Below, piece after piece: positions 2,258 to 61,345 of a stretch of 64,000 bases of DNA. The notes beneath the pieces are model-generated. The model did not search any database, was not told the origin of the DNA, and saw only the letters and a list, made by a program, of their open reading frames with translations. Location: positions 248,001-312,000 of the forward strand of contig NZ_WODC01000003.1 of NCBI RefSeq assembly GCF_009729555.1, given 5' to 3'. Origin of the DNA: Pseudodesulfovibrio alkaliphilus (lineage in GTDB: Bacteria > Desulfobacterota > Desulfovibrionia > Desulfovibrionales > Desulfovibrionaceae). Numbering within the stretch: the first letter of the stretch is position 1; the number at the start of each line of letters is the position of its first letter. Made by a program: the position numbers and the translations under genes.

Positions 2258-3226
2258 ATGTTCTTTGACCTGTCGTGGCCAGTGCTCTGGCATGGGCTGC
2301 TTTGGCCGCTCATGCGGCTGACCTTCTTCATCAGTCTCGGCCTGTTTGTGGGTAACCTCATCGAGTCGCTGCACTGGACGCGCCACGCCGCACGGCTGGC
2401 CGATCCCCTGGCCCGGCGGGCCCGGCTCAAGGATGTGTCCGCTGCCAGCTTCTCCATGGCCTTCTTTTCCGGCATCACGGCCAACACCATGCTCTCCGAA
2501 GCCCACGCCAAGGGAACCATCAGCGACCGCGAGCTGATGCTTTCCAACCTCTTCAACAGTCTGCCCACCTATTTCCTGCATCTGCCCACGGTCTTTTTCA
2601 TCGCTGCCCCGTTCATCGGAAGCACGGCCGCCGTGTATGTGGGCCTCACCGCAGTGGCCGCCGTGCTGCGCACCGTGTCCATCGTGGTTGCCGGCCGCTT
2701 CCTGCTGCCGCCCGTGCCCGAGGGGTGCGTTCCCTGTCGTCTGGACGAGGCCGAGGCCATGCGCGACAAGGGCTCGGCCCTGCGCAAGACATGGCGCCGA
2801 TTTCTCGAGCGTCTGCCCAGGGTGCTGTACATCACGGCACCCATCTACGCGGGATTCTTTCTGCTCAAGCAGGCCGGACTCTTCTCCTGGCTTGAGCAGT
2901 TCATGGCCGGGCAGGTGGGGTTTTTCTCCTTCCTCCCCCCCGAGGCGCTGACCATCGTGGCCTTTCACATGGCCGCGGAATTCACCGCCGGGCTGGCCGT
3001 GGCCGGGGCCCTTATCGCCGACGCCGGACTGACCCAGTATCAGATCGTGCTGGCCCTCATGGTCGGCAACATCCTCTCATCGCCCATGCGTGCCTTCCGC
3101 CACCAGTTTCCCTATTACGCAGGCATCTTCAAGCCGCGCATGGCGGTCAGGCTCATCGCCTGTAACCAGACCCTGCGGGCGGCAAGCCTGATTCTGGTGG
3201 GCGGAGTCTATGCCCTGGTCGCCTGA
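2258..3226 (+). CDS. Nucleoside-recognition (gate) domain membrane protein
   Basis: A 322-aa polytopic membrane protein that starts on the base after the panB stop, implying translational coupling. Hydrophobic segments lie near residues 10-32, 65-85, 100-145, 190-215 and 225-300. The SMAFFSGITANTMLSEAHAKG and FHMAAEFTAGLAVAGALI segments resemble the duplicated gate domain of the nucleoside-recognition family, which includes SpmA/SpmB- and YjiH-type proteins. Substrate and direction of transport are unknown. Fusion to a panB transcript could hint at a pantothenate-linked substrate, but that is only context. Confidence 0.6.
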   Translation: MFFDLSWPVLWHGLLWPLMRLTFFISLGLFVGNLIESLHWTRHAARLADPLARRARLKDVSAASFSMAFFSGITANTMLSEAHAKGTISDRELMLSNLFNSLPTYFLHLPTVFFIAAPFIGSTAAVYVGLTAVAAVLRTVSIVVAGRFLLPPVPEGCVPCRLDEAEAMRDKGSALRKTWRRFLERLPRVLYITAPIYAGFFLLKQAGLFSWLEQFMAGQVGFFSFLPPEALTIVAFHMAAEFTAGLAVAGALIADAGLTQYQIVLALMVGNILSSPMRAFRHQFPYYAGIFKPRMAVRLIACNQTLRAASLILVGGVYALVA

Positions 3227-3347
3227 CCGCTGCCCAAAAGACCCACCCCTCACCCCCCTGCCGTCCTGACCATGCACAGGCCTTTCCGCGGTCGAAGAAT
3301 TGCACAAGAAAACCCTTGCCTTGCACTTGTGTGCAGAATGCACATCT

Positions 3348-3361
3348 GTTGCACTAGCAAC
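3348..3361. promoter_or_regulatory. Palindrome upstream of sigma54 promoter 1 (activator-site candidate)
   Basis: GTTGC-ACTA-GCAAC, perfect 5-bp arms, centred 44 bp before the promoter GG and about 68 bp before the predicted start. A second palindrome, TGTGCA-GAA-TGCACA, lies at 3330-3344. The equivalent site in copy 2 sits at the same distance to within 1 bp, which points to an enhancer-binding protein site. Confidence 0.6.
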
Positions 3362-3396
3362 AAACTTTAACCAGCTAGAATTTATCGATAAAATTT

Positions 3397-3412
3397 TGGC
3401 ATGAGTCATGCT
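3397..3412 (+). promoter_or_regulatory. Sigma54 promoter 1 (-24/-12)
   Basis: TGGCATG-N4-ATGCT, with GG at 3398-3399 and GC at 3410-3411 separated by exactly 10 bases, fits the sigma54 consensus TGGCAC-N5-TTGCW. The predicted transcription start is near 3423, one base before the small ORF's ATG. Confidence 0.75.
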
Positions 3413-3423
3413 TAAGCCAGGGC

Positions 3424-3624
3424 ATGAACAATGCGGCAACCTTCATCTTTCTCGTTCTGATGGCCCTCCTGCTGAAGCGGTCGCTGCTCTCCACCCGAGA
3501 GCCTTCAGCCGCCAGAAGGGAAGAGCAGGACAACGACCAAGTCCTGCGGCCTGCTCCGGTGACGGGCCGGCCATCCAGGCAACACCGGGCGGCAAGGCCG
3601 CACACCCGGCGCACAAAGCCCTGA
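3424..3624 (+). CDS. Small membrane peptide A (tandem paralogue of peptide B)
   Basis: A 66-aa ORF starting MNNAATF with a short hydrophobic helix at about residues 4-20 (FIFLVLMALLL), then KRSLLS and a strongly basic, proline- and arginine-rich tail. Its partner at 3874 shares AATFI, the helix, an [KR]RSLLS junction and nearly the same length. Nucleotide differences between the two fall largely at third codon positions in the helix region, which supports real coding. There is no convincing Shine-Dalgarno, and the ATG lies at about +2 of the predicted sigma54 transcript, so translation would be leaderless. Family unknown; a membrane-anchored stress peptide or a peptide-encoding small RNA are both possible. 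Confidence 0.6.
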   Translation: MNNAATFIFLVLMALLLKRSLLSTREPSAARREEQDNDQVLRPAPVTGRPSRQHRAARPHTRRTKP

Positions 3625-3680
3625 ACACACCCCAAAAACATCCTGCACCATCCCCCTCCTCATGGTGAACCCCCCAACCG

Positions 3681-3710
3681 AGAAGAGCCGCGCAAGCGGC
3701 TCTTCTCCTT
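3681..3710 (+). terminator. Terminator of sigma54 unit 1 (GCAA loop)
   Basis: Stem AGAAGAGCCGC / GCGGCTCTTCT (11 bp) with a GCAA tetraloop, followed by CCTTTG. It would end a transcript of about 285 nt begun at the sigma54 promoter. Confidence 0.75.
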
Positions 3711-3797
3711 TGCCTGCCCGGGCGGGGCGGATAAACCGAAAGCAAAGTGCAGAAGAAAGCACAACCACAGGAGTAAAAACCTGCACATTGCACAATC

Positions 3798-3811
3798 GTT
3801 GCTGTAACAAC
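3798..3811. promoter_or_regulatory. Palindrome upstream of sigma54 promoter 2 (activator-site candidate)
   Basis: GTTGC-TGTA-ACAAC, a near-perfect version of the copy 1 palindrome (one mismatch), centred about 44 bp before the promoter GG. The sequence TGCACATTGCACA lies just upstream at 3782-3794, matching the TGCACA elements of copy 1. Confidence 0.6.
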
Positions 3812-3847
3812 AATTTGCAACATACTGAAATAACGCCTAAAAATGTT

Positions 3848-3863
3848 TGGCACAGGAGATGCT
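3848..3863 (+). promoter_or_regulatory. Sigma54 promoter 2 (-24/-12)
   Basis: TGGCACAGGAGATGCT has GG at 3849-3850 and GC at 3861-3862 with a 10-base spacer. It is closer to consensus (TGGCAC) than promoter 1. The predicted start is at 3874, the first base of the peptide's ATG. Confidence 0.78.
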
Positions 3864-3873
3864 AAGAGTGTGT

Positions 3874-4077
3874 ATGCACGACGCAGCAACATTCATTCTC
3901 ATCATCCTGACCGCCGCCTTGTTGCGGCGGTCCCTCCTCTCCTCCCCGGATGCCTTCTCCGGCATCCGGGTAGGCGAGGGAGACAAGCCTGGCTTCAGGA
4001 CTCCGGTTCCAGTGGCCGTCCGGGTGAAAAGCCCCCACACCGCCCGGCGCCCGCAATCTGGACCCAGAGTTTTTTAA
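3874..4077 (+). CDS. Small membrane peptide B (tandem paralogue of peptide A)
   Basis: A 67-aa ORF beginning MHDAATF, with a hydrophobic helix (FILIILTAALL), then RRSLLSS and a basic, proline-rich tail. Paired with the 66-aa ORF at 3424. The start at 3874 is preferred over 3847 because it aligns with the paralogue and coincides with the predicted sigma54 transcription start; 3847 lies upstream of the -24 element. The GGAG inside the promoter spacer could act as a ribosome site only on a longer transcript. Function unknown. Confidence 0.6.
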   Translation: MHDAATFILIILTAALLRRSLLSSPDAFSGIRVGEGDKPGFRTPVPVAVRVKSPHTARRPQSGPRVF

Positions 4078-4138
4078 GCATACACCACACCTCCTTGAAC
4101 GCAGATCCTAACCTCCTCAACCAGTGAACCCCCAAACA

Positions 4139-4168
4139 GAAAAGGGCCGCGCAAGCGGCCCTTTTCCA
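4139..4168 (+). terminator. Terminator of sigma54 unit 2 (GCAA loop)
   Basis: Stem GAAAAGGGCCGC / GCGGCCCTTTTC (12 bp) with a GCAA tetraloop, the same loop and closing pairs as in unit 1. It would end a transcript of about 295 nt. Confidence 0.75.
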
Positions 4169-4226
4169 TGGCGTTGTCCCGGCTCGAAAGCAGCCTGTCA
4201 AGTACCCGCAAACCTCGGTTCGCCGC

Positions 4227-4388: not shown

Positions 4389-4880
4389 TTAGATGCTTGC
4401 GTCATCGGAGCCGGTCCGGGCCACGGAACCGGACGACACGGACGGCTCCGCATCCGGCTGGCCCGCGCTCCCGGAAACTCCCTTGCCGCCGAAATCGGCT
4501 GCCACCACTTTTTTTCTGACAGGTCCGGCGTTCCCGCTCATGGACACACAACCCTCCACGACTGCTCCGCGCTCCACCGTGAGCACGGGGGTGTGCAGAC
4601 TGCCGTTGAGCACCGAGGTCGCTTCGAGCACGGTGTGTTCAGTGACCACCACATCGCCGTCGATACGGCCGCACGAGGTCAGCCTGCCCACCCGGACTGT
4701 GCCTGTGATGTGCGCCTTGCGCCCCAGGACCAGATCGCCCTCGGTGGAAATCTCACCATCGAAACGGCCGTCTATGCGTACGGCGCCCACAAAGTCGAGC
4801 TTGCCGCGGTACTCCGTGCCAACGCCCAGGAATGCGTTCAGCTCGGTGTTGTCTGTCTTTTTTTTCGAAAAAAGGCCCAT
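4389..4880 (-). CDS. Bactofilin family polymer-forming protein
   Basis: 163 aa. A short charged N-terminus (MGLFSKKKTDNTELNAFLG) is followed by the bactofilin beta-helix core at about residues 20-115, with the regular hydrophobic/glycine spacing (YRGKLDFVGAVRIDGRFDGE, GDLVLGRKAHITGTVRVG, GRIDGDVVV). The last 40 residues are low-complexity Ser/Gly/Asp. Bactofilins assemble without nucleotide into membrane-associated filaments that scaffold envelope enzymes. A ribosome site GAGGTGA precedes the ATG. A palindrome GCCGAT-CAT-ATCGGC at 4926-4940 lies in its upstream region and may be regulatory. Confidence 0.88.
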   Translation of the reverse strand: MGLFSKKKTDNTELNAFLGVGTEYRGKLDFVGAVRIDGRFDGEISTEGDLVLGRKAHITGTVRVGRLTSCGRIDGDVVVTEHTVLEATSVLNGSLHTPVLTVERGAVVEGCVSMSGNAGPVRKKVVAADFGGKGVSGSAGQPDAEPSVSSGSVARTGSDDASI

Positions 4881-45860: not shown

Positions 45861-47240
45861 CTACTTCGCCTTGCCCATCAGGTCGTATTTCTTGAGCTTG
45901 TATTGCAGGTTGCTTTTGGAGAGGCCGAGCATTTCCGCGGCCTTGACCTGGACGAACTCCGCCTTGACCAGGGCGCGTCTGACCAGGGCGCCCTCGATCT
46001 TGTCCATGGTCTCGGCAAGGTTGAGCTGCGAGGGCAGGAGATCTACCGCGCTCTTGAACTGGGCCTCTTCGTCCTTGATCTCGGGGGGCAGGTCGTCGGC
46101 GTCGATGACATCGGTGCGGGCCAGCACCGTGCAGCGCTCCACCACGTTCTCCAGCTGGCGCACGTTGCCCGGCCACTCGTAGGCGGTCAGGTAGTCCATG
46201 GCCGCGCCGGTAAACCCGGTGATCTCCACCTGGTTCTCTCTGGCGTACTTGTCCAGAAAATGGGCGGCCAGGAGCGGGATGTCCTCACGCCGCTCGCGCA
46301 GGGGGGGCATGAAGATCGAGACCACGTTGAGCCGGTAGAAGAGATCCTCGCGGAATTCACCCCGCGAGACCGCTTCCTGGAGATTCTTGTTGGTGGCGGC
46401 CACGATGCGGATGTCCACGTCAAAGGTCTCGGCGCCGCCCACCCGCTCTATCTGGTGCTCCTGAAGCACGCGCAGCAGCTTGACCTGAAGCTCGGGCGTC
46501 AGCTCCCCGATCTCATCGAGAAACAGGGTGCCCTTGTTGGCCAGCTCGAAGCGGCCCTTGCGCATGGCCGTGGCTCCGGTAAAAGACCCTTTTTCGTGGC
46601 CGAAAAGCTCGCTTTCGAGCACGCCGGGACTGAGCGCCATGCAGTTGACCGTGACAAAGGGCTCGTCGCGGCGCGGGGACGAGGCATGGATGGCCCTGGC
46701 CACCAGCTCCTTGCCCGTGCCGGATTCGCCGAGGATAAGCACCGTGGAGCGGCTGGGCGCGGCCCGGTCCACCATGTCCATAACCTGCTGCATGCCCTTG
46801 CCCCGTGCGATGATGTTGCTCTTGCCGAAGCGGTCGAGGATTTCGCGCTTGAGGCGGATGTTCTCGCGCTGGGTGGCGGCGAACTGCACGGCCTTGGAGA
46901 TGGAGAGGAGCATCTCCTCGTTGGCAAAGGGCTTGGTGATGTAGTCAAAGGCTCCGACGCGCATGGCTTCCACCGCGGCCTCGATGGAACCGAAGGCGGT
47001 CATGATCAGCACCGGAATGTGCGGGTAGCCTTTCTTGCAATGTTCGAGCACGTCCTGGCCCGTGAGCTTGGGCATCTTCATGTCCGTGAGGATGATGTCC
47101 ACCTCGGATTCCTCAAGGTAGGCCAGGCCCATTTCCGGGTCGGACAGGGCGGTCACGGCGTATCCTTCGTCCTCGAGGATGGACTCGAGGATGAGCAGAT
47201 AGTTTTTCTCGTCGTCAAGGACCAGGATGTTGGCGGGCAT
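45861..47240 (-). CDS. NtrC-class sigma54-dependent response regulator
   Basis: 459 aa. A receiver domain (phospho-Asp53 in [11 protein letters not shown]), an AAA+ domain ([13 protein letters not shown] near 170, LFLDEIGE Walker B) and a C-terminal Fis-type HTH ([20 protein letters not shown]). The sigma54-contact loop reads GSFTGA rather than the usual GAFTGA, a substitution found in some members that is worth testing. It would activate GG-N10-GC promoters such as those at 3397, 3848 and 17063. No kinase gene is adjacent. Confidence 0.93.
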
Positions 47241-58914: not shown

Positions 58915-60330
58915 TCAGTCTATTTGTATCCGATACGCCTTGAGCTTGCGGTACAGGGAGCTGCGCTCCAGGCCCACGGCTTTGGCCAGTTGCGTAATAT
59001 TGCCGTCAAAGTCGCGCAACTTCGCTTCCAGAAACCGCGCCTCAAACTCGGCCCGGGCCTGCTTGAGGTCGGTCGGCGCCCCGGCCACGAGGTCGTCCAG
59101 CGACCCCCTGTCGGCCTCGTTCGCCTCTGCGCCTCCCCTGGCCGGGGTCCGCGGCTGGCGGCCGCCGGAAAACTCCGGGGGCAGTCTGTCGCGGGTCACG
59201 GTTCCGCCAGCGTGCAGGATGAACATCCGCTCCACGAAATTCTTGAGTTCGCGCACGTTGCCGGGCCAGGGGTGGGCCACAAGCACCTCCATGGCCCCGT
59301 CGTCAAAGGCGATGGGCTTGAACCCGTGCTGCCGCACCAGGGTGGCGATGAAATCCCTGATGAGCAGGGGGATGTCCTCGGTGCGCTCGCGCAGAGGCGG
59401 CACTTCCAGGGGAAAGACCTTGAGCCGGTAATACAGATCCTCTCGAAAGGCACCCGCCTCTATTTCGCGCAGCAGGTCCTTGTTGGTGGCCGCGATGACG
59501 CGCACGTCCACGGTGATGGTCTTGCGTCCGCCCACATGCTCGAAGGACTGTTCCTGAAGGATGCGCAATATCTTGGCCTGGGTCTTCAGGCTCATGTCGC
59601 CGATCTCGTCGAGGAAAAGGATGCCGCCGTCGGCCAGCTCGAACTTGCCTGCCTGGGCCTTGTCCGCGCCGGTAAAGGCCCCTTTTTCATGACCGAAAAG
59701 CTCGCTCTCGATGAGTTCCTCGGGAATGGCCGCGCAGTTGACCGCCACCAGGGGCTTGTGCCGACGGCTCGATTGGTGGTGAATGGAGCGGGCCACTATC
59801 TCCTTGCCGGTGCCGTTCTCACCAGTGATGAGCACCCAGGCGTCGGTGGGCGCCACCCGCGAGATGACATCGTTGAGGGAGACGATGGCCTCGGATCGGC
59901 CCGTGAGCACCACGGGCTGCTCGGAAGAGATGCGGGTCCTGAGGGCGAGGTTTTCCTGACGCAGACGGGAAAACTCCAGGGCATTGCGGGCGGTCACCAC
60001 CACCTTCTCCAGGGAGAGGGGCTTCTCGATGAAGTCAAAGGCCCCCTTCTTGAGCGCCTTGACCGCGGTTTCGATGGTCCCGTGGCCCGAGATCATGATT
60101 ACCGGCAGCCCCTCGTGATCGCGGGCAATGGCGTCGAGGACGGCCAGGCCGTCCATGCCGGGCAGCCAGATATCCAGAAAGACCATGTCCGGGGTCGCCG
60201 CGCCAAGCCGTTCGAGGCCCTGCTCGCCGGACTCCGCCTCGGCCACCTCGTGGCCGTCGTCCTCAAGGATGCCGCGCAGGGAGAAGCGGATGCCCTCCTC
60301 GTCGTCGATGATCAGTATCCTGCCGCCCAT
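58915..60330 (-). CDS. ntrX: NtrX-like sigma54 response regulator
   Basis: 471 aa. A receiver (Asp53 in [11 protein letters not shown]), an AAA+ domain ([13 protein letters not shown] near 170, GAFTGA sigma54 loop, ILFLDEIGD Walker B) and a Fis-type HTH ([20 protein letters not shown]). The domain pattern and the [20 protein letters not shown] segment resemble NtrX more closely than NtrC. The likely partner is the NtrY kinase at 32003, which is 25 kb away. AAGGAG lies 5 bases before the ATG. Confidence 0.9.
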
Positions 60331-60424
60331 CAAAGCTCCTTGGGTGATAATTGCCACGGCCAGACCGGGACGCCCTCCCCTCATACCGGAGCGGGACGAT
60401 TCCTTCAAGCCGGACCGCCCCGGC

Positions 60425-61345
60425 TCAGACGGTTGGCCTTGCCACGGCCAGCAGGTCGGCCAGCGTCTCCTCAAGGTCGGGATGCCGGAACACATAGCCC
60501 GCCTCGGTCAGCCGGGTCGGCAGGGCCAGCTGGCCCGAAAGCAGCACCTCGTCGGCCATCTCGCCAAACAGCAGGCGCAGGGCAAAGGCAGGGGCATTGA
60601 GCCGGTAGGGTCGTCCCAGGGTCTGGCCAAGAATGCGGGCGAACTTGCGAAATCGAACCGGCGTAGGCGCGGTCAGGTTGTATGCGCCCCGGGCCTCCTT
60701 GTTTTCCATGAGAAAGCGGATGGCTCCCACCTCGTCTTCCAGATGGACCCACGACACCCCCTGGTACCCGGAGCCGGGCGGCCCGCCCAGGAAATACCGA
60801 AATGGCGGCAGCATCCTGGCCAGGGCGCCGCCATGCCCGAGGACCATGCCCGTTCGCACGACGACCCGTCGTACGCCCATGGCTTCCACCTCGGCCGAGG
60901 ATGCTTCCCAGGCGCGGCAGACCTCCGCCAGATAGCCGCTGCCCGACTCCGCGCCCTCGTCCACCGGGTCGTTGCCTCGCGGGCCGTAGTAGCCCACGGC
61001 CGACGCCTGGACAAACACGCCGGGCTTGGCCGAGGCCTCGCCCACCGCCTTTACCAGGGAGCGGCCCGCATTGACGCGGCTTTCGAGAATCCTGCGCTTG
61101 ACCTCCCCGGTCCAGCGCCCGGCAGCGATGTTCTCCCCCGCCAGATTAACCACCGCCGTGTCCGGCCCCAGCAGCTCGAGCCAGCCGGAGCCGTCCCAGC
61201 GCATGCCGATGACCCCGTGCCCGAAGACCTCGGCCACCTTGCCCGGCGAACGCGAGAGGACAACGATATCCCACCCCGCGTCGCGTAACGCGACCACCAG
61301 CGCCTGCCCAATGAAGCCGGTTCCCCCGGCGATGATTGCCCGCAT
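60425..61345 (-). CDS. TIGR01777-type NAD-dependent epimerase
   Basis: 306 aa. The Rossmann motif IIAGGTGFIGQALVVAL is at residues 4-20, followed by VVNLAGENIAAGRWTGEVKR and QASAVGYYGPRGND, which are signatures of the YfcH/TIGR01777 branch of extended SDR proteins. The reaction is unknown. GGAGG lies 4 bases before the ATG. Confidence 0.88.
   Translation of the reverse strand: MRAIIAGGTGFIGQALVVALRDAGWDIVVLSRSPGKVAEVFGHGVIGMRWDGSGWLELLGPDTAVVNLAGENIAAGRWTGEVKRRILESRVNAGRSLVKAVGEASAKPGVFVQASAVGYYGPRGNDPVDEGAESGSGYLAEVCRAWEASSAEVEAMGVRRVVVRTGMVLGHGGALARMLPPFRYFLGGPPGSGYQGVSWVHLEDEVGAIRFLMENKEARGAYNLTAPTPVRFRKFARILGQTLGRPYRLNAPAFALRLLFGEMADEVLLSGQLALPTRLTEAGYVFRHPDLEETLADLLAVARPTV

Follow-up and report, generated by a model that had tools for sequence, protein, structure and literature searches.

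A predicted sigma54-dependent structured RNA with anti-Shine-Dalgarno motifs that carries a putatively leaderless small reading frame in most Pseudodesulfovibrio genomes

Two tandem units in a 64,000-nucleotide stretch of Pseudodesulfovibrio alkaliphilus DNA (contig NZ_WODC01000003.1, positions 248,001 to 312,000; this whole stretch is called the window, and its genome, 3.22 Mb in size, G000) each contain TGCACA/TTGCACAA boxes, a palindrome, a sigma54 site, an open reading frame (ORF) of 66 or 67 codons and a terminator hairpin with a GCAA loop. Comparison with their relatives indicates that the conserved object is larger than the ORF: it is an RNA of ~300 nucleotides (nt) with covarying hairpins and unpaired CCUCC motifs. 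We hold, with moderate confidence, that stress induces this RNA, that it is regulatory and probably dual-function, acting in the manner of the anti-Shine-Dalgarno (anti-SD) small RNAs (sRNAs), and that in most of the genus it bears a leaderless ORF. An earlier reading of the same DNA, made from the sequence alone, had taken the two units for a dedicated, duplicated membrane-peptide locus under an NtrC-class activator. That reading appears partly right, in that both ORFs do lie in tandem behind sigma54 sites, but it does not go far enough, as the hairpins within the ORF, the 3' untranslated region (3'UTR) and the CCUCC motifs, which it overlooked, are conserved as RNA.

The RNA was compared in 31 distinct family members (one of 32, L024, was omitted since its ORF is identical to that of L023, and a weak second match, G041:C1:2035990, E 0.0035, was excluded). 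RNAalifold predicts three hairpins, i.e. two within the ORF (H1 and H2) and the terminator, and standard pairs are found in 96.1% of the alignment cells over them. Changes on both sides of a pair occur in 63 cells as compared with 20.6 (standard deviation, sd, 4.8) in shuffled alignments, none of the 500 shuffles reaching 63; the structure tested was derived from the same alignment, and structures slid along it score far lower. In H1 95.9% of the cells are paired and 6 of the 7 pairs show changes on both sides, in H2 the values are 95.6% and 6 of 8. Fold z-scores, computed for three sequences, are -6.7 for copy 2, -4.9 for a relative (L021) and -3.1 for copy 1. The motif CCCUCCUC sits unpaired between H1 and H2, a third, less uniform hairpin exposes CCCCCAU in its loop, and the 3'UTR holds the motifs ACCUCC(C)UUGAA and CCCCUCCUC, mostly unpaired by prediction. 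CCUCC is described as the anti-SD core of 16S rRNA in the portion of the literature consulted. CCTCC occurs 2.97 times per RNA, as opposed to 1.10 times in dinucleotide shuffles, and its positions recur: nt 61 in 26 of 31 members, nt ~212-229 in 24 and nt ~232-261 in 30. The mean unpaired probability is 0.70 for CCTCC and 0.44 overall. The hallmark of the alpha-r14 or cuckoo sRNAs, repeated unpaired CCUCC between hairpins, is present here in a predicted structure that covariation supports. The RSLLS junction, which had been noticed as a common peptide feature, is indeed present, but its codons coincide with the unpaired CCCUCCUC motif that is conserved as RNA. No Rfam family was found at gathering score for the window locus and ten related loci.

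The small ORF is also conserved as a coding sequence. Its frame contains no stop in the 31 sequences, while 200 shuffles gave a mean of 49.8 and a minimum of 31. The frame-aware substitution score is 1.09, whereas 100 column shuffles average -0.02 (sd 0.22) and reach 0.49 at most, and the two halves of the ORF are each above their own nulls (z 3.1 and 3.7). Gap runs inside the ORF, of which 5 are distinct when the last 8 codons are omitted, all have lengths that are multiples of 3, as opposed to 13 of 38 in the 3'UTR. These data indicate that selection keeps the ORF open and shapes it, as had been proposed, and the RNA conservation visible in the alignment indicates a second constraint on its nucleotides. 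The peptides are 62-68 residues long with one short hydrophobic segment; in the 14 peptides aligned this segment is conserved and followed by a basic pair, which suggests contact with a membrane. The AATFI string is common to the two window copies, as had been noted, but it is absent from the other peptides of the 14. The peptides have no described family: Pfam gave no match at E up to 0.1 for three of them, and NCBIfam gave none for the two tested.

The position of the ORF relative to its promoter deserves attention. TGGCAY-N6-TGC precedes the ORF in all 31 members, which bears out the sigma54 promoters proposed earlier. The start codon is ATG in 31 of 31, preceded by C in 30 and by T in one, and the distance from the first G of the GG to the A of the ATG is 26 nt in 25 members, 27 in 5 and 25 in one; copy 1 has 26 nt and copy 2 has 25. 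In sigma54 promoters the GG is usually at -25/-24, and with this spacing the transcript would begin 0-2 nt before the AUG and is predicted to be leaderless. This coincidence of the ATG with the expected transcription start went unremarked before, and in this respect the earlier reading was incomplete. According to the part of the source at hand, the mapped leaderless transcripts of Sinorhizobium all have the AUG first (PMC3616915). Upstream, at least two TGTGCA/TGCACA boxes are found in all 30 members whose upstream DNA was compared, and the length from the ATG to the terminator is 290-326 nt in the 29 sequences, of 30, in which our script detected the hairpin. Among the papers listed from the open-licence PMC literature on leaderless transcription, no title or opening part of an abstract describes a locus of this kind.

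A profile built from 14 peptides finds the family in 30 of 36 Pseudodesulfovibrio genomes, and the anticipated orthologues with GG-N10-GC promoters thus exist. Outside the genus the same search, in a 297-genome sample of the order, gave only four weak matches (E 0.002-0.009), and the RNA model gave weak ones as well (E 0.004-0.1 per genome, 150 genomes searched). Each of the six genomes without a profile match has, immediately after the same membrane-protein gene (53-73% identity), a locus whose boxes and sigma54 site are of this type. Four of these (G020, G023, G016 and G013) contain a different ORF of 85-90 codons with another N-terminus and with its ATG 43-44 nt past the GG, i.e. with a leader of ~18 nt. 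The remaining two (G043 and G008) lack any homologous ORF led by an ATG, and their other ORFs are mutually unlike; they retain the C-rich CACACCUCCUCUC element, followed by a hairpin. The locus and its promoter are hence present in 36 of 36 genomes and the leaderless hydrophobic ORF in 30, and the RNA appears to be more general than the leaderless hydrophobic peptide, which belongs to most of the genus and not to all of it. The earlier reading had described a membrane-peptide locus; this holds for most genomes, but in 2 of 36 the locus has kept its promoter and lacks an intact ORF, and 4 of 36 have the other N-terminus. The duplication is real in the window, but two copies were seen in G000 and G015 only. 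Of 20 regions compared, 13 have the RNA immediately after the same membrane-protein gene; this gene adjoins in the other orientation in one (L098), is ~7 kb off in one (L090) and is absent in 5, and a gene that we take to be bactofilin-like is present within 18 of the 20.

These comparisons bear on the possibility that the locus is simply a gene for a peptide, that is, an unremarkable, though leaderless, sigma54-driven mRNA for a small membrane-associated stress peptide, in which RNA structure and C-rich stretches serve the stability of the message or arise as by-products of codon use. The coding signal, the frame-keeping gaps, the invariant ATG and the conserved hydrophobic segment with its basic pair would all be expected from such a gene. 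It is nevertheless unlikely in our judgment, since the hairpins covary, the 3'UTR is conserved, CCTCC is both enriched and unpaired, and beside the same gene there are two orthologues without an intact ORF and four with another N-terminus.

As regards regulation, an NtrC-class activator, as proposed earlier, is very probable for the RNA locus. The pair TGTGCAA-N9..13-TTGCACA occurs without mismatch in 22 of the 36 genus genomes, at one place in each: 20 of these places are at this RNA locus, one at the divergent locus of G020 and one elsewhere (G003). A ZraP-like protein is encoded in 35 of the 36 genomes, and boxes and a sigma54 site are found upstream of its gene in 28 of 30 loci compared, the exceptions being L164, with neither, and L150, with a distant sigma54 site only. 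In 4 of 5 regions the ZraP-like gene has a response-regulator gene with a GAFTGA motif nearby (none was found in L179), and in L178 and L181 a kinase gene lies between the two. The best NCBIfam names are ZraS for the L181 kinase, AtoC and then ZraR for the L181 regulator, and ZraP for the chaperone of the window genome. Against 4 matches in total for the pattern reversed as a control, TTGCACA-N38..68-TTGGCAY-N6-TGC was detected across the taxonomic family in 61 of 159 genomes, which represent 24 of the 44 genera. Fifty of these loci were inspected; some lead to secreted ZraP-like or glycine-rich proteins, others to small proteins that we take to be SHOCT-like or to CCTCC stretches without a long ORF preceded by a Shine-Dalgarno (SD) sequence near the start. 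In related genera, weak RNA-model matches lead to loci in which boxes and a sigma54 site are followed by PF13801 (Metal_resist) genes above the Pfam cut-off (L140 and L147) or by ORF-poor C-rich stretches (L141, L144 and L146). The RNA locus does not appear to be a dedicated output, as similar boxes and promoter also precede the ZraP-like gene, SHOCT-like proteins and further C-rich RNA-like stretches. Three other candidates were set aside: L142 has only a sigma54 site and a protein below the Pfam cut-off, and L143 and L145, with no clear boxes, were taken as chance matches.

Some further loci with this promoter type were seen along the way. L213 (G000:C1:553500-556500, -) and L215 (G015) form a second candidate sRNA, located ~11 kb from the ZraP-like gene; its boxes, sigma54 site, GCGACACCTCCCCCTTGTGAAG and strong terminator-like hairpin are conserved between the two sister genomes. 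Similar boxes and a sigma54 site also lie upstream of small proteins of 91-98 residues in L214, L216, L233 and L235, which represent four further species of the genus. These proteins are glycine/histidine-rich and then have what we take to be a SHOCT-like end; three of the four are on the contig of the ZraP-like gene, 8-12 kb off. Genomes of genus g20 have in common an RNA-like locus with the same promoter type (L144 = L197, L146, L191, L192, L194-L196 and L232), in which a GACCGCCGCGACCCGCCGGTCGCGGCGGTC-like hairpin is followed by a C run with CCTCCCC. L221 and L224 (genus g17) and L198 (g20) combine this promoter type with CCTCC motifs and a different, SD-led ORF of ~60 codons, the two g17 peptides being alike by eye.

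Several observations weigh against the dual-function reading. Copy 1 (3424-3713) retains the boxes, promoter, start position and ORF but is largely without H1, H2 and the GCATATACCATACCTCC anti-SD stretch, and the sister copy in G015 is likewise. The full box pair is absent from the window genome and 13 others, the window boxes being less perfect, and binding of a ZraR-like regulator to these boxes is suggested by co-occurrence. Kinase, regulator and chaperone all score below the NCBI equivalog cut-offs; the L181 regulator fails the ZraR equivalog test with 417 bits (cut-off 760) and reaches 457 with the AtoC model (cut-off 714). Relatedness of the sequences can inflate the covariation counts, and the hydrophobic segment of the peptide is short, ~15 residues. 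In G043 and G008 the homologous frame is partly open, which makes the loss of an older ORF possible, yet it contains stops and no ATG. The prediction of targets came out negative: a ranking by duplex energy over the start regions of 71, 27, 30, 32 and 29 predicted genes in five genomes gave no consistent target, although the ranking is crude, with gene starts guessed by the script and doubtful ORFs at several of the top ranks. The ZraP-like gene ranked 56 of 71 in G000 and 21 of 29 in G003, the response regulator 11 of 30 in G024 and the kinase 1 of 29, in G003 only, while none of these three genes was recognised by the script in G012 or G011. A single trans target of the extended complement GGAGGTRTGGTRTATG was also rejected, there being no shared second place among the matches listed (36 genomes, up to 2 mismatches); the best match was often the opposite strand of the RNA locus itself.

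Selection on the protein is a further weak point. Because pN/pS (nonsynonymous relative to synonymous variation) is 0.81 overall (0.62 for codons 1-25), protein selection is weak, and mean pairwise differences by codon position are 0.32/0.33/0.37, so that the third position is barely more variable than the others. The earlier reading's check on codon-position bias has a mixed outcome: these values show hardly any bias, yet the frame-aware test is clearly positive and the gap runs keep the frame. One may ask whether the locus makes a non-coding regulatory RNA only, the ORF being a relic or translated to no effect. The weak pN/pS agrees with such a view, as do the orthologues without an ORF and, in other genera, the C-rich RNA-like stretches with the same promoter type and no long SD-preceded ORF near the start, but the frame score, which exceeds its null by ~5 sd, the ATG of all 31 members and the 5 of 5 frame-keeping gap runs do not, and we consider it quite improbable.

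The complement of GCATATACCATACCTCC also had to be considered. It reads GGAGGTATGGTATATG, a good ribosome site with an ATG, so that the C-rich stretch could mark the start of a gene or RNA on the minus strand. An antisense frame has the next best of the six frame scores (0.77), which is a point against our own reading too, and the best, sub-threshold Rfam match (rsmX, 22.7 bits, gathering 56) is on the minus strand. The two best minus frames, however, hold 15 and 12 stops over the 31 sequences while the plus frame has none, and the sigma54 sites are directed to the plus strand in 31 of 31; a gene or RNA on the opposite strand is very improbable.

We can now describe how the dual-function RNA might work, building on the promoter geometry, the selection on the ORF, the covariation, the motif enrichment and the promoter architecture common with the ZraP-like gene. 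Each unit would be one sigma54-dependent transcription unit of ~300 nt. Metal or envelope stress would be sensed, and a ZraR/AtoC-type NtrC-class response regulator, encoded with a ZraS-like kinase near the gene of the ZraP-like periplasmic chaperone, would bind the TTGTGCAA/TTGCACAA boxes; the shared promoter architecture suggests both the activation by stress and the production of the RNA together with the chaperone. The transcript would begin at the AUG or at most 2 bases from it, and the promoter geometry points to leaderless initiation at this 5' AUG. As a message it would be translated without leader or SD sequence to the peptide of 62-68 residues. As an RNA it would fold into H1, H2, the third hairpin and the terminator and expose several CCUCC motifs, which may base-pair with SD sequences elsewhere and thereby reduce, without Hfq, the translation of the mRNAs concerned. 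Such occlusion of ribosome sites is suggested by the conservation of the motifs and by the precedent of the sRNA NfeR1; Hfq gave no match in the window genome (PF17209; the control was positive in 5 of 14 named genomes). A start at the 5' end would permit translation of the RNA despite its anti-SD motifs. We speculate, tentatively and with considerable doubt, that under stress the RNA represses SD-led mRNAs through its several anti-SD motifs while its own peptide is made from an SD-independent start, message and regulator coexisting in one molecule without interference, and that within the genus a conserved regulatory RNA has acquired, altered or shed its small ORF.

It is instructive to compare the locus with known systems. 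The ZraSR/ZraP zinc and envelope stress system has a ZraS-like kinase, a sigma54 response regulator, a ZraP-like chaperone and a common promoter architecture, as here, but our scores are under the NCBI equivalog cut-offs, and to our knowledge no such RNA output is on record for E. coli ZraR. The Qrr sRNAs of Vibrio are similar in that they have an NtrC-class activator (LuxO), sigma54, TTGCA-type boxes and a terminator; they differ in being ~100 nt long, Hfq-dependent and non-coding. The CcsR sRNAs of Rhodobacter have C-rich loops. In the CcaF1-CcsR (CIN1) locus, as far as the portion of the source at hand describes it, the gene of a 71-residue protein and stress sRNAs are on one transcript with a stress-sigma promoter and a Rho-independent terminator, but the promoter is of RpoH type and the sRNAs are processed from the part behind the ORF (PMC10253847). 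CcaF1 is a DUF1127 RNA-binding protein, while no DUF1127 was found by Pfam (E up to 0.1) in the three peptides tested here. The NfeR1/alpha-r14 cuckoo RNAs of rhizobia share redundant unpaired anti-SD motifs, hairpins, independence from Hfq and an NtrC-class circuit, the motifs of NfeR1 silencing ntrB, according to the part of the report consulted (PMC10746234). NfeR1 differs in that it is a trans-acting alphaproteobacterial sRNA of 123 nt with a sigma70-type promoter, whereas the window RNA is predicted at ~300 nt, with a sigma54 promoter and an ORF under selection. By the tests made, the locus resembles anti-SD sRNAs and small-protein/sRNA loci such as CcaF1-CcsR and appears to be a member of neither. 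For D. vulgaris, the excerpts consulted state that NtrC-class regulators drive non-coding RNAs (ncRNAs) through sigma54, and they label DVU1419 as envelope stress (PMC4641369, PMC3333781). The ncRNA targets of DVU0653, DVU0679, DVU1419 and DVU2359 are, by this description, like our RNA in this respect.

Sigma54-driven sRNAs of sulfate reducers are thus on record, and in the part of the source at hand the function of one is given as unknown (PMC3333781). The present locus belongs to a conserved family that can be aligned, that has a defined promoter and a set of motifs, and for which there is a likely activator; Hfq is not detectable in the window genome. Beside one and the same gene there is a natural series with a leaderless ORF, a leadered other ORF and no intact ORF, which could show how small proteins arise on or vanish from regulatory RNAs, and which also addresses the question whether anti-SD RNAs and leaderless translation go together.

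Table 1. Predicted features of the two units in the window (positions counted from its first letter).
Feature	Position	Strand	Basis
Copy 1 upstream activator region	3300-3362	+	read from sequence
Copy 1 boxes: TTGCACAA; TTGCACTTGTGTGCA; TGCACA	3300-3307; 3321-3335; 3339-3344	+	read from sequence
Copy 1 palindrome TGTTGCACTAGCAACA	3347-3362	+	read from sequence
Copy 1 sigma54 promoter TTGGCATGAGTCATGC	3396-3411	+	family pattern TGGCAY-N6-TGC
Copy 1 small ORF, 66 codons, stop 3622-3624; predicted leaderless	3424-3624	+	coding signal over the peptide family
Copy 1 3'UTR segment	3646-3667	+	loop of a short predicted hairpin holds CCCCCTCCTC (3652-3661)
Copy 1 terminator hairpin GAGAAGAGCCGC-GCAA-GCGGCTCTTCTC	3680-3707	+	
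Copy 2 upstream activator region	3782-3812	+	TGCACA 3782-3787, TTGCACAA 3788-3795
Copy 2 palindrome CGTTGCTGTAACAACA, weaker than that of copy 1	3797-3812	+	read from sequence
Copy 2 sigma54 promoter TTGGCACAGGAGATGC	3847-3862	+	family pattern TGGCAY-N6-TGC
Copy 2 predicted RNA, ~300 nt, strongly structured	3873-4172	+	fold z = -6.7; family covariation
Copy 2 small ORF, 67 codons + stop	3874-4077	+	promoter geometry, coding signal
Hairpin H1, within copy 2 ORF	3909-3932	+	covariation
First anti-SD motif CCTCCT, H1-H2 gap, RSLLS-junction codons	3933-3938	+	motif count, unpaired probability
Hairpin H2, within copy 2 ORF	3945-3970	+	covariation
Copy 2 3'UTR anti-SD region GCATACACCACACCTCCTTGAA...AACCTCCTC	4078-4117	+	CCTCC at 4090-4094 and 4112-4116
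Copy 2 terminator hairpin GAAAAGGGCCGC-GCAA-GCGGCCCTTTTC	4139-4166	+	direct repeat, fold, covariation

The two units (Table 1) lie between the membrane-protein gene (2258-3226, +) and the presumably bactofilin-like gene (4389-4880, -). A simple terminator scan flagged neither of the two GCAA-loop hairpins. The 3' ends of the copies form a direct repeat of 84% at an offset of 459 nt, the distance from ATG to ATG being 450 nt. Two more ORFs of the window, at 45861-47240 (-) and 58915-60495 (-), contain a GAFTGA-type motif and are likely sigma54 activators.

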